NCBI GenBank assembly: GCA_905371725.1
Contig: CAJPML010000069.1
Coordinates: 1-6,161 of the forward strand
Source: Leptotrichia sp. oral taxon 215
GTDB lineage: Bacteria > Fusobacteriota > Fusobacteriia > Fusobacteriales > Leptotrichiaceae
Direction of reading: 5' to 3'
DNA length: 6,161 bases
The translations under genes and the position numbers were made by a program. Position 1 is the first letter of the stretch, and every line of letters starts with the position of its first letter. A model generated the notes under the pieces. That model made no database searches. It saw nothing but the letters and a program-made list of their open reading frames with translations, and was not told the DNA's origin. Positions 2,771 through 6,157 of this stretch are shown here, piece by piece.

Positions 2771-2786
2771 ACATTTACGTAAATGT
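2771..2786. promoter_or_regulatory. Perfect 16-bp palindromic operator upstream of glgP
   Basis: ACATTTACGTAAATGT is identical to its own reverse complement and ends one base before the glgP -35 box. Its centre is about 44-45 bp upstream of the predicted transcription start, which suits either a repressor blocking RNA polymerase or an activator touching sigma. A near-identical site (15 of 16 bases) sits in the same place relative to the promoter at the right end of the window. A dyad without loop bases suggests a dimeric protein site rather than an RNA hairpin. The TreR-like regulator encoded nearby is the first candidate. A LacI-family protein, whose sites often have a central CG, is an alternative. 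Confidence 0.8.
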
Positions 2787-2787
2787 C

Positions 2788-2816
2788 TTGACAAATAAAA
2801 AAATAAAGATTATAAT
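2788..2816 (+). promoter_or_regulatory. Consensus promoter of glgP
   Basis: TTGACA (2788-2793), a 17-nt A-rich spacer and TATAAT (2811-2816) match the sigma-70/sigma-A consensus at all twelve positions. Transcription should begin near 2822-2824. Such a strong core promoter next to a palindrome suggests control mainly by repression. It also rules out the GTG at 2817, directly after the -10 box, as the glgP start codon. Confidence 0.9.
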
Positions 2817-2858
2817 GTGAATCGAAAATTTATTATGAAAGGAATAAAAATAAGGACG

Positions 2859-5132
2859 ATGAATCATAATTTTATAGAATTTTTGAAACGTGGGGGTAAC
2901 AAAGAATTAAAAGAAATGACAAATCAGGAAATTTATTATAAGCTTTTAGAATATGTAAAAGAAGAAGCTGAAAAAAAATCAGAGAATAAATCAAAGAAAA
3001 AGATATACTATATATCAGCAGAATTCCTGATAGGAAAGTTGCTTTCAAATAACCTTATTAATCTTGGAATATATAAGAAAATAAGGGAAGAATTGAAAAA
3101 TGCAGGGAAAAAATTAAGTGATATAGAAGAACTGGAGACAGAACCATCATTAGGAAATGGTGGACTTGGGAGACTGGCTTCATGTTTTGTAGATTCAATA
3201 TCTACTTTAGGAATAAATGGTGAAGGTATAGGACTTAATTATCATTGCGGGCTTTTTAAGCAGGTTTTTAAAAAGAATGAGCAGAATGCTGAACCAAATT
3301 ACTGGATAGAAGATGAAAGCTGGTTAAGAGATACAAACATAGGATATAAAGTGAAATTCAAAAATTTTACTTTGAATTCAAAGCTTAAAAGAATTGATAT
3401 ACTTGGATATGAAAAAGATACAAAAAACTATCTAAATTTATTTGATATTGAAAGTGTTGATTACAATCTTATAGAAGAAGGAATAACTTTTGATGAGGAA
3501 ATTATCGAAAAGAACCTTACATTATTCCTGTATCCTGATGACAGTACTAAAAAAGGGGAACTGTTACGTATATATCAGCAGTATTTTATGGTTTCAAATG
3601 CGGCAAGACTTATTATTGCCGAGGCTATAGAAAAAGGAAGCAATATCCATGATCTTGCAGATTATGCTTTCGTTCAGATAAATGATACTCATCCGAGTAT
3701 GGTAATTCCTGAATTAATTAGAATTATGACAGAAGAATATAAAATTTCTTTTGAAGAATCTGTAAAAATTGTTACAGCAATGACAGGATATACAAACCAT
3801 ACAATATTAGCAGAAGCACTTGAAAAATGGCCTTTAGAGTATTTGGAAGAAGTTGTACCTGACATAGTTGAAATAATAAAAAAGCTTGATAAAATTGTAA
3901 AAATAAAATATAATAATGAAAACGTACAAATTATAGACAAAGAAGATAGAGTCCACATGGCAAATATGGACATACATTTTTCATCAAGTGTGAATGGGGT
4001 AGCTTATCTGCACACTGAAATTTTAAAGAACAGTGAACTTAAGGATTTTTATGAAATCTATCCTGAAAAATTTAACAACAAGACAAACGGAATTACATTC
4101 AGAAGATGGCTTGAAAGCTGTAATGAAGATCTTGCAGATTATATAAAGGAGTTAATCGGTACAGGTTATCTGACAGATGCTGAAAAACTGGAAGAACTTT
4201 TGAAATTTTCTGATGACAAGGAAGTATATGAAAAACTGGAAAAGATAAAAAAAGAAAACAAGCTGAAACTGAAGGAATATCTGCAGCATACACAAGGTAT
4301 CGTAATAGATGAAAATAGTATAATAGACACACAGATAAAAAGATTCCATGAATATAAGCGTCAGCAGATGAATGCTTTATATGTAATAAAGAAATATCTT
4401 GACATAAAAAATGGAAAACTTCCTGAAAGAAAGATAACAGTACTTTTTGGTGGAAAAGCGGCTCCAGCTTATATTATTGCACAGGATATAATTCATCTGA
4501 TACTTTGCCTGTCAGAAATTATAAATAATGACCCTGAAGTAAATAAGTATCTGAATGTATATCTGGTTGAAAACTATAATGTGGGACTGGCTGAAAAAAT
4601 AATTCCTGCAACGGATATTTCAGAACAGATTTCCCTTGCATCAAAGGAAGCAAGTGGAACAGGAAACATGAAATTTATGTTAAATGGTGCATTAACTTTA
4701 GGAACAATGGATGGAGCAAACGTTGAAATCTGTGAACTTGTAGGTAAAGAAAATATATATATTTTTGGAAAACATAGTGACGAAATAATAGAATTATATG
4801 AAAAGGAAGGATATGTTTCAAAAGACTACTATAAACAGGAAGGTATTAAAGAAGTAGTTGATTTTATTACTTCAAAAGAACTTGTTAAAGTAGGAAACAT
4901 TGAAAGACTGGAAAGACTGCATAATGAACTTATAAATAAGGACTGGTTCATGACACTTATTGATTTTAAAGAATATTATGAAGTTAAGGAAAAAATGCTG
5001 TCAGATTATGAAAATAAGAAACTTTGGTATAAAAAAGTAATAAATAACATAGCTAAAGCAGGATTCTTTTCTTCTGACAGAACAATAGGACAATATGAAA
5101 ATGAAATATGGAAAACAAAAGATAAAAAATAG
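2859..5132 (+). CDS. glgP: Glycogen/maltodextrin phosphorylase (GT35, PLP-dependent)
   Basis: This enzyme cleaves alpha-1,4-glucan chains with phosphate, releasing glucose 1-phosphate in the cytoplasm. From the ATG at 2859 it has 757 residues, a usual length for short bacterial phosphorylases. Numbered from that start, visible motifs are KKIYYISAEFLIGKLL, LGNGGLGR (98-105), INDTHP (274-279), TNHT (312-315), NGITFRRW (411-418), KRFHEYKRQ (494-502) and EASGTGNMK, whose final lysine (K605) should carry the pyridoxal phosphate. The frame stays open upstream to a GTG at 2817, but that codon abuts the -10 box and would lie ahead of the transcript start. ATG 2859 is preferred because the family-like N-terminus begins there. 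ATG 2835 is possible but has no upstream Shine-Dalgarno sequence. AAAGGA (2838-2843) lies 15 nt before ATG 2859 and TAAGGA only 2 nt before it, so neither spacing is ideal. The gene is divergent from malQ, whose product supplies its substrate, and appears monocistronic because a terminator follows. Glycogen and maltodextrin preference cannot be separated by eye. Confidence 0.95.
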   Translation: MNHNFIEFLKRGGNKELKEMTNQEIYYKLLEYVKEEAEKKSENKSKKKIYYISAEFLIGKLLSNNLINLGIYKKIREELKNAGKKLSDIEELETEPSLGNGGLGRLASCFVDSISTLGINGEGIGLNYHCGLFKQVFKKNEQNAEPNYWIEDESWLRDTNIGYKVKFKNFTLNSKLKRIDILGYEKDTKNYLNLFDIESVDYNLIEEGITFDEEIIEKNLTLFLYPDDSTKKGELLRIYQQYFMVSNAARLIIAEAIEKGSNIHDLADYAFVQINDTHPSMVIPELIRIMTEEYKISFEESVKIVTAMTGYTNHTILAEALEKWPLEYLEEVVPDIVEIIKKLDKIVKIKYNNENVQIIDKEDRVHMANMDIHFSSSVNGVAYLHTEILKNSELKDFYEIYPEKFNNKTNGITFRRWLESCNEDLADYIKELIGTGYLTDAEKLEELLKFSDDKEVYEKLEKIKKENKLKLKEYLQHTQGIVIDENSIIDTQIKRFHEYKRQQMNALYVIKKYLDIKNGKLPERKITVLFGGKAAPAYIIAQDIIHLILCLSEIINNDPEVNKYLNVYLVENYNVGLAEKIIPATDISEQISLASKEASGTGNMKFMLNGALTLGTMDGANVEICELVGKENIYIFGKHSDEIIELYEKEGYVSKDYYKQEGIKEVVDFITSKELVKVGNIERLERLHNELINKDWFMTLIDFKEYYEVKEKMLSDYENKKLWYKKVINNIAKAGFFSSDRTIGQYENEIWKTKDKK

Positions 5133-5150
5133 TTATTATTTATAGTGTTT

Positions 5151-5184
5151 AAAGCTGTTTCAAATTTTATTTTGGAACAGTTTT
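5151..5184 (+). terminator. Intrinsic terminator after glgP
   Basis: AAAGCTGTTTCAAA (5151-5164) pairs with TTTGGAACAGTTTT (5171-5184) over 14 positions, including two G-U wobbles, around a 6-nt loop TTTTAT. The 3' arm ends in a T run directly followed by ATCCC. It starts 18 nt after the glgP stop codon. It separates glgP from the phosphatase gene, which then needs its own promoter or read-through. Confidence 0.8.
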
Positions 5185-5265: not shown

Positions 5266-5269
5266 AGTT

Positions 5270-6061
5270 ATGAAACTGTTAACTATCAATGTTCATGCCT
5301 GGATAGAAGAAAATCAGGATGAAAAGATGGAAACACTGGCAAAAGTAATTGCAGAAAATGACTATGATGTAATAGCTATGCAGGAAGTAAATCAGTCTAT
5401 GAACAGTCCTGTACTTTTCAGGGCAATACGGCAGGATAACTATGGATGGGTACTTCTGGACAAAATAAGTAAGTATACTGACAAAACCTATTACTATCAT
5501 TGGAGCAATTCACACATTGGATATGACAAATATGATGAAGGTCTTGCAATTATAACAAAACATAAGCTTCTAGATGTGGATGAATTTTATTGTACTAGGG
5601 CTCAAAGTGTAAATACGATTACATCAAGAAGAATTAATAGTGCGACAATTGAATACAAGGGGCAGATAATGGAATTTTACACTTGTCATATGAATCTTCC
5701 TACAAATAAGGAAGAAAAAATGTCAGATAACATACAGAGAATATTGAAAAGAAGTCAAACAGATAACTTAAAAATATTAATGGGAGATTTCAATACTGAT
5801 GCAATTAATAGTCCTGAAGACTATAAAATGATTCTTTCGCAAGGACTGTACGACACTTACACTGCTGCTATTGAAAAGGATAGTGGAATTACAGTAGGCG
5901 GAAATATTGATGGATGGAGTAAGAATAAGGAAGATAAGCGTATAGACTATATTTTTAGTAATAAGAAAATAAAAGTTCTAAGTAGCAAAGTAATATTCAA
6001 TGGTAAAAATCATCCAGTTGTATCAGACCATTATGGTCTGGAAGTTATTCTGGATATGTAA
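5270..6061 (+). CDS. EEP-superfamily phosphatase, probable maltose 6'-phosphate phosphatase (MapP-like)
   Basis: This 263-residue soluble protein has the metal-dependent endonuclease/exonuclease/phosphatase fold. The catalytic set is present: N7 in INVHAW, E39 in MQEVN, H140 in CHMNL, D173 and N175 in GDFN, D226 in RIDYIF, and D253-H254 in SDHYG. The N-terminal INVHAWIEENQDEKMETLAKVIAENDYDVIAMQEVNQ and the HIGYDKYDEGLAIITKH segment (82-99) resemble Enterococcus/Lactobacillus MapP as I recall it. In Enterococcus faecalis, MapP hydrolyses maltose 6'-phosphate made by the maltose PTS to maltose and phosphate. The neighbourhood (malQ, glgP, TreR-like regulator) fits that role much better than DNA repair. 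No signal peptide or membrane segment is visible. Two tandem TAA stops end the gene (6059-6064) and no terminator follows before the next promoter. EEP assignment is firm. The maltose 6'-phosphate specificity is inferred; another sugar phosphatase or a phosphodiesterase is possible. Confidence 0.85.
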   Translation: MKLLTINVHAWIEENQDEKMETLAKVIAENDYDVIAMQEVNQSMNSPVLFRAIRQDNYGWVLLDKISKYTDKTYYYHWSNSHIGYDKYDEGLAIITKHKLLDVDEFYCTRAQSVNTITSRRINSATIEYKGQIMEFYTCHMNLPTNKEEKMSDNIQRILKRSQTDNLKILMGDFNTDAINSPEDYKMILSQGLYDTYTAAIEKDSGITVGGNIDGWSKNKEDKRIDYIFSNKKIKVLSSKVIFNGKNHPVVSDHYGLEVILDM

Positions 6062-6112
6062 TAAAAGAGATATTTTAAAATGCAATACGAAAATGGAAGA
6101 AAAAATTAAAAA

Positions 6113-6128
6113 AGATTTACGTAAATGT
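6113..6128. promoter_or_regulatory. Second copy of the palindromic operator at the right edge
   Basis: AGATTTACGTAAATGT matches the glgP operator at 15 of 16 positions. The inner ATTTACGTAAAT (6115-6126) is a perfect 12-bp palindrome. As at glgP, one base separates it from a TTGACA box. Conserved spacing in a second promoter strongly suggests a shared regulator. Confidence 0.8.
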
Positions 6129-6129
6129 A

Positions 6130-6157
6130 TTGACAAATAAAAAAAATGTGGTATATT
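6130..6157 (+). promoter_or_regulatory. Promoter of an unseen downstream gene
   Basis: TTGACA (6130-6135) is followed after 16 nt by TATATT (6152-6157). The first part of the A-rich spacer is the same as in the glgP promoter before the two diverge. The transcript would start just past the window edge, so the gene it drives is not visible. Its shared operator places that gene in the glgP regulon. Confidence 0.7.

Follow-up and report, generated by a model that had tools for sequence, protein, structure and literature searches.

A predicted CG-centred operator of a TreR-like GntR/UTRA regulator upstream of maltose-type genes in the Leptotrichiaceae

Introduction

Among described regulators the closest to the one considered here is TreR, a GntR-family protein of the HutC subfamily (TIGR02404; PDB 2ogg). 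We analyzed a 6,161-nucleotide stretch of Leptotrichia sp. oral taxon 215 (GCA_905371725.1, contig CAJPML010000069.1, positions 1 to 6,161), referred to throughout as the window, in which a gene for a TreR-like GntR/UTRA regulator lies among maltose-type genes and a palindrome occurs twice, each time directly upstream of a TTGACA hexamer. The window protein resembles TreR in its GntR helix-turn-helix (HTH) and UTRA domains, in having TreR as its best NCBIfam match and the TreR effector domain as its best PDB match, and in its apparent control of phosphotransferase system (PTS) disaccharide genes. It differs from TreR in its predicted targets, which are maltose-type genes (phosphorylase, MalQ, a MapP-like protein, EIICB and malK-lamB), and in the Leptotrichiaceae operator, which has a CG centre and no GT..AC. 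The Bacillus tre operator is TTGTATATACAA, and an earlier note on this DNA had set the palindrome apart from it. That distinction holds, the HutC consensus GTMTAKAC, as given in a GntR survey, being absent from the site (PMC4494728).

The HutC repressors YvoA/NagR and DasR (PDB 2wv0, 4wwc, 4zs8) are also related, and their alignments to the window protein span residues 4-230 (YvoA) and 21-231 (DasR); the sequence relation is thus full-length to the repressor YvoA and of the effector domain to TreR. YvoA has Arg 28, Arg 38 and Met 39 where the window protein has Ser, Lys and Asp. In lactic acid bacteria, MapP is a characterized enzyme of maltose 6'-phosphate phosphatase systems. The window encodes a protein of the endonuclease/exonuclease/phosphatase fold (EEP) that is 56% identical to a relative named maltose 6'-phosphate phosphatase by the Joint Genome Institute (JGI), and in the genomes analyzed here its gene adjoins a maltose-type PTS gene; unlike in those systems, MalQ and an alpha-glucan phosphorylase are here combined under a GntR-type predicted operator, and the EEP activity is a prediction. 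The LacI-family MalR/MdxR maltose regulons of Firmicutes share maltose/maltodextrin targets and a CG-centred palindromic operator with the present system (PMC3616900, PMC4052901), but MalR and MdxR belong to a different protein family, and one Leptotrichiaceae genome (G017) has the sites and no LacI-domain gene.

A search of the open-access literature, with subscription papers mostly outside it, found no worked-out Leptotrichiaceae sugar regulon; in the only open-access text found to pair 'Leptotrichia' with 'GntR', GntR occurs solely within the reference list (PMC13414078). What appears to be new here is a HutC/TreR-type regulon whose operator lacks GT..AC. We propose, at a probability of roughly three in four, that ATTTACGTAAATGT, one base 5' of TTGACA, serves as operator for the TreR-like GntR/UTRA regulator (439-1146), which would thereby hold maltose/maltodextrin promoters shut.

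Results

The repeated palindrome-promoter word in the window

The two copies of the word, at 2773-2803 and 6115-6145, are 31 bases long and differ solely at base 15 (C/A), and each consists of the palindrome, one variable base and TTGACA, which confirms both the single-base difference and the constant 1-nt distance described in the earlier note. The palindrome is perfect over 16 bp at 2771-2786 and is broken at its second base at 6113-6128 (AG...GT), leaving a perfect core of 12 bp common to both copies; no other perfect 12-bp palindrome occurs in the five non-coding gaps that were examined in the window. The chance of an exact 20-base match within the window, counting both strands at 30.4% GC, is about 1.3e-7. 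The promoter consensus scan found 39 sites compared with 32.2 in shuffles and is not significant as a whole. The features concerned are as follows.

439 to 1146, minus strand: GntR/UTRA regulator gene (HutC-type, TreR-like; Pfam GntR and UTRA, NCBIfam TreR), encoding the likely operator-binding protein
1173 to 2663, minus strand: malQ, 4-alpha-glucanotransferase of glycoside hydrolase family 77, GH77 (Pfam and NCBIfam)
2697 to 2725, minus strand: predicted malQ-gntR promoter, TTGACT-17-TATATT, 45 bp from operator 1 (consensus scan, 10/12)
2771 to 2786, no strand: predicted operator 1, ACATTTACGTAAATGT, the 16-bp palindrome between malQ and glgP
2788 to 2816, plus strand: predicted glgP promoter, TTGACA-17-TATAAT, one base past ATTTACGTAAATGT (consensus scan, 12/12)
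2859 to 5132, plus strand: alpha-glucan phosphorylase (glgP/malP type), likely start ATG at 2859 (Pfam and NCBIfam)
5270 to 6061, plus strand: EEP protein, MapP-like, a predicted maltose 6'-phosphate phosphatase (Pfam; relative of PDB 3teb)
6113 to 6128, no strand: predicted operator 2, AGATTTACGTAAATGT, with the 12-bp perfect core at 6115-6126
6130 to 6157, plus strand: predicted promoter, TTGACA-16-TATATT with TG, for the next gene, a predicted PTS EIICB outside the window (consensus scan, 11/12)

The nearest relatives of the window are Leptotrichiaceae, the closest being G019, whose regulator is 98% identical. There the second site lies 3343 bp beyond the first and precedes a start whose 34 readable residues are those of a PTS EIICB, the remainder being masked; by analogy, the gene following operator 2 is predicted to encode this transporter as well.

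Genome-wide distribution of the module

The scan for the palindrome upstream of TTGACA that the earlier note had proposed was run over 33 Leptotrichiaceae genomes with the module ATTTACGTAAATGTNTTGACA, allowing at most two mismatches and using the module read backwards as the control. It returned 31 sites, of which 12 match exactly, spread over 17 genomes, compared with one for the reversed module at the same threshold. With at most one mismatch, the 96 genomes of the order contained 26 sites in 15 genomes and none for the control, and no module site fell in the 63 of them that are not Leptotrichiaceae. All 31 sites precede alpha-glucan or alpha-glucoside genes, namely EIICB (14), the phosphorylase (11), the ATP-binding cassette (ABC) operon malK-lamB-binding protein-permease (3), a glycoside hydrolase of family 4 (GH4; 2) and the MapP-like EEP protein (1), where the EIICB count takes in G019, identified by its first 34 residues, and G015, in which the frame is broken in the open reading frame call. 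A search of viral contigs gave no match.

Conservation upstream of orthologous glgP, the other expectation of the earlier note, was equally consistent: a window-type phosphorylase (87-98% identity) is found in 11 genomes, with the site upstream in 11/11, and the remaining 22 genomes have only a relative of 43-45% identity. When 12 phosphorylase upstream regions were aligned, the window's among them, the flank diverged as far as the palindrome, whereas the operator and both promoter elements (-35 and -10) were kept and the hexamers were invariant. Each genome with sites has one to three modules, besides which ten genomes have a separate operator, ACATTTACGTATATGT, upstream of malQ (seven by the matrix scan described below and three more). 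The term 'small regulon' was therefore fair. The description 'fusobacterial-type' should read Leptotrichiaceae. Taken together, the scan indicates that the earlier reading is largely supported.

The unbiased counts are those of the module searches over the 33 and 96 genomes and of a search for the palindrome over the 33 genomes. A matrix trained on 28 module sites, including the two of the window, was also scanned over 74 sequences, but these loci had been chosen for their sites or regulators, so the result is not an unbiased count: 36 matches exceeded 20 bits, training sites among them, and 35 of these lie near known target genes, the second site of the window being included by analogy with G019; the remaining one is in G008, near a recA-like gene. 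The palindrome search was itemized for 22 genomes (G020 and G024-G033 were counted but not itemized), and in these 25 of the 29 places with at most one mismatch are known target sites. Three further candidates were rejected: TCTTTTACGTAAATGT, listed in at least ten genomes, and ACATTTATATAAATGT, listed in at least five, each fell within a coding frame in the sole copy inspected (L069 and L185, respectively), and the former was not counted; ACATTTACTTAAATGT in G008 also lies within a coding frame (L186).

Several observations concern the target genes themselves. A second phosphorylase, the 43-45% identical one, is present in all 33 genomes and is presumably the glycogen enzyme. The operon of malK, lamB, a binding protein and two permeases in G010, G014 and G016 (L064, L075, L079) is preceded by the module variant ATTTACGTATAGGT-A-TTGACA. 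Two genes may be broken: the EEP match at G012:C1:1399009-1399716 has three internal stop codons, and the EIICB of G015 (L076) is seen as several shorter frames.

Co-occurrence of the module with YSKDT-type regulators

The window protein scores 51.5 bits against Pfam GntR (cut-off 27) and 98.3 bits against UTRA (cut-off 23.8), and thus has the N-terminal GntR winged HTH and the C-terminal UTRA domain of a GntR/HutC protein. Its HTH residues are S28, K38 and D39 (numbering of PMC4494728, with FadR Ser 7 as 0). A Leptotrichia genome may encode as many as three close relatives of this protein, at 58-73% identity (98% in G019), and the recognition helices fall into three types, YSKDT (18 rows, window included), FSKLT (14) and CSVLT (10). 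Residue 28 is Ser, Ala or Met in the YSKDT type and Asp or Ala in the other types, and in none is it Arg.

Presence of a YSKDT-type protein agrees with presence of a module site (at most two mismatches) in 33/33 genomes, 17 having both and 16 neither, where absences are as read from the assembled sequence of each genome. The naive Fisher p of 9e-10 for this agreement ignores kinship, and most of the 16 also lack the target genes. For both reasons more weight falls on genomes that are without the regulator but have kept its targets. At least five genomes without the YSKDT type retain target orthologues and have no site: G005 and, with GH4 at 78-90% identity, G022, G024, G025 and G027. G005 retains malQ, EEP, EIICB and GH4 and has only an FSKLT-type protein; its best module match in 15.5 kb has six mismatches, and upstream of its EIICB, 97.7% identical to that of G018, the -35 is retained and the operator is gone. 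The GH4 gene of G005 adjoins the FSKLT-type gene and retains a TA-type operator.

The surroundings of the paralogues are also recurrent. In ten genomes (L123, L125, L127, L129, L130, L131, L133, L136, L137, L140) the YSKDT-type gene lies before genes for a response regulator and a histidine kinase, and in eight of those ten it follows genes for citrate synthase, isocitrate dehydrogenase and aconitase (Pfam, one representative each). The CSVLT-type paralogue is divergent from a short-chain dehydrogenase gene in 10/10 loci (L002, L003, L124, L126, L132, L135, L138, L142, L143, L146), and in nine of the ten a gene for a DeoC/LacD-type aldolase lies no more than about 5 kb downstream (Pfam on L002 only). 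CSVLT-type promoters have TA-centred AT-rich palindromes, possibly a further sister operator, which are too simple in sequence and were left unused as evidence.

Predicted operator centre and HTH residue 39

The GH4 promoters allow paralogue type and operator centre to be compared at one gene. Those adjoining an FSKLT-type gene carry the core TTATATAA, with a TA centre, in 14/14 cases and at the same place before TTGAC, and those adjoining a YSKDT-type gene carry TTTACGTAAA, with a CG centre, in 2/2 (G001 and G023); in a 17th row (L054) GH4 follows EIICB and has no site of its own. Asp 39 thus goes with CG in 2/2 and Leu 39 with TA in 14/14, in genomes that are related and hence not independent. 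In the GntR survey, Asp at HTH position 39 of HutC proteins significantly prefers G/C at the centre and Arg at position 28 strongly prefers outer G/C, and the operator consensus is NyGTMTAKACNy, with some HutC proteins listed with other motifs (PMC4494728). The Leptotrichiaceae site reads TTTACGTAAA, without the GT and AC four bases apart of GTMTAKAC, which lowers the typicality of the operator and not the HutC membership of the protein. Residues S28, K38 and D39 are in line with a CG centre and missing outer GT..AC, and the CG centre of the predicted operator probably depends on Asp 39. Since the tree places the YSKDT-type proteins of G001 and G023 as sister to the two Leu-39 clades (support 98/98), the CG/TA change at GH4 may have been a single event.

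These patterns would be accounted for if a TreR-like gene was duplicated in Leptotrichia and a change of Asp 39 to Leu moved the GH4 operator centre from CG to TA, splitting an ancestral alpha-glucoside regulon among paralogues that read sister operators, a history for which we judge the odds to be even. G001 and G023 would then show the earlier state and 14 genomes the later one, and G005 would be a natural knock-out that has lost the regulator along with the CG operators and kept the TA operator.

Discussion

Proposed mechanism

The module, its position, its targets and its co-occurrence with YSKDT-type regulators are read directly from the genomes, and from them we infer how the promoters may be controlled. 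A regulator dimer would bind the palindrome and cover the DNA beside the -35, excluding RNA polymerase from an otherwise near-consensus promoter. The protein would be released once its UTRA domain had bound a sugar phosphate imported by the PTS, either maltose 6'-phosphate or the phosphate of another alpha-glucoside. Within the window, malQ and gntR are probably co-transcribed because a gap of only 26 bp separates the malQ stop from gntR, and for the same reason operator 1, between malQ and glgP, could also provide autoregulation of the regulator, with the caveat that 45 bp separate this operator from the predicted malQ promoter. The combination of MalQ, phosphorylase and EEP protein points to a pathway that would remove the phosphate from maltose phosphate imported by the PTS and pass the product on. 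The window also contains, at 2-202 on the minus strand, the start of another reading frame, 67 aa long before it is truncated at the window edge, for which neither Pfam nor NCBIfam gave a match.

A number of observations weigh against this proposal. The 16-base palindrome alone, at up to two mismatches, occurs at 105 places in the 33 genomes, compared with 271 for its reversed control, and its 10-base core, searched in three genomes, is likewise not enriched. Because the palindrome alone is rarer than the control, it was dropped as a genome-wide marker and only palindrome plus TTGACA was counted; the signal lies in this combination and in its position. Although TreR (TIGR02404) is the best NCBIfam match, its 190.3 bits are under the cut-off of 211.95, placing the window protein outside the TreR equivalog. 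The agreement in 33/33 genomes does not amount to 33 independent cases, since the genomes are related, and in 13 of the 17 genomes with both partners the 5 kb or so around the YSKDT-type gene contain no target, nor was an operator found near this gene. G011, G013 and G015 show the EIICB site alone, two of the three at two mismatches, and none at malQ/EEP. The four itemized palindrome places that are not known target sites are one near a recA-like gene in G008, a copy in G014, a coding-frame copy in G008 and G023:C20:2836 (one mismatch). The first (L088, about 8896), an operator-like palindrome of 24.6 bits near the recA-like gene, so labelled from the look of its sequence, and near an outer-membrane-like frame, is the one clear exception; the second (L182, about 7225; G014:C4:241709) repeats the malQ operator together with its flank but has no malQ next to it, which looks like the outcome of a flank duplication. 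For L004, a relative from the Firmicutes that has Asp 39, no clear operator emerged. Since EIICB carries a CG operator although it adjoins an FSKLT-type gene, the FSKLT-type protein, too, may recognize this operator. Lastly, a sugar phosphate need not be what releases the protein, because C. difficile TreR reportedly shifts more DNA in the presence of trehalose 6-phosphate (PMC10569727).

Alternative explanations

That C. difficile result would also fit a GntR protein that binds the site but activates, or whose binding is strengthened by the sugar ligand instead of repression being lifted, and, with its centre about 44 bp upstream of the likely transcription start, the palindrome occupies a position that activators use as well. 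We consider this unlikely, since promoters as near to consensus as these (12/12 and 11/12) should not need an activator; moreover, the characterized relatives found by sequence are named repressors, and the -35 is retained in G005 after loss of both regulator and operator.

It is quite improbable that the palindrome is bound by a MalR-like maltose regulator of the LacI family rather than by the GntR protein. LacI-type operators are typically even palindromes centred on CG, maltose genes of Firmicutes are commonly repressed by MalR (PMC4052901), and a LacI-domain gene is present in 32/33 family genomes. However, the window contains no LacI gene, G017 has sites before phosphorylase, EIICB and malQ without any LacI-domain match, so that not every genome with sites has such a gene, and the centre of the GH4 operator switches between CG and TA along with the GntR type.

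Adjacency of the FSKLT-type gene to EIICB and GH4 in many genomes, together with the relatedness of the YSKDT and FSKLT types and the fact that their operators differ mainly at the centre, could be taken to mean that the FSKLT-type paralogue, or both paralogues, read the CG operators wherever the FSKLT type is present. This is very improbable: G005 has an FSKLT-type protein, yet its malQ/EEP and EIICB promoters are without a CG operator, and in G019, G001, G006 and G023 the CG sites are present and the FSKLT-type protein is absent. Finally, there is next to no chance that the repeat is a recently copied promoter segment and no operator. In favour of such copying, the two copies in the window stay alike over 31 bases, past the palindrome and TTGACA and into the A-rich spacer; against it, the module is found at unlinked loci, in front of different genes and with flanks that are unrelated, and genomes without the regulator are also without the module.

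Implications

If regulation by the TreR-like protein through the CG-centred palindrome is correct, the Leptotrichiaceae would gain a worked-out sugar regulon. It would also be a clear case of a regulator and its operator changing together, the GntR paralogues going with CG- or TA-centred sister operators. The amino-acid difference concerned sits at a position that a general GntR survey picked from correlation alone (PMC4494728), and these natural proteins would allow that prediction to be tested.

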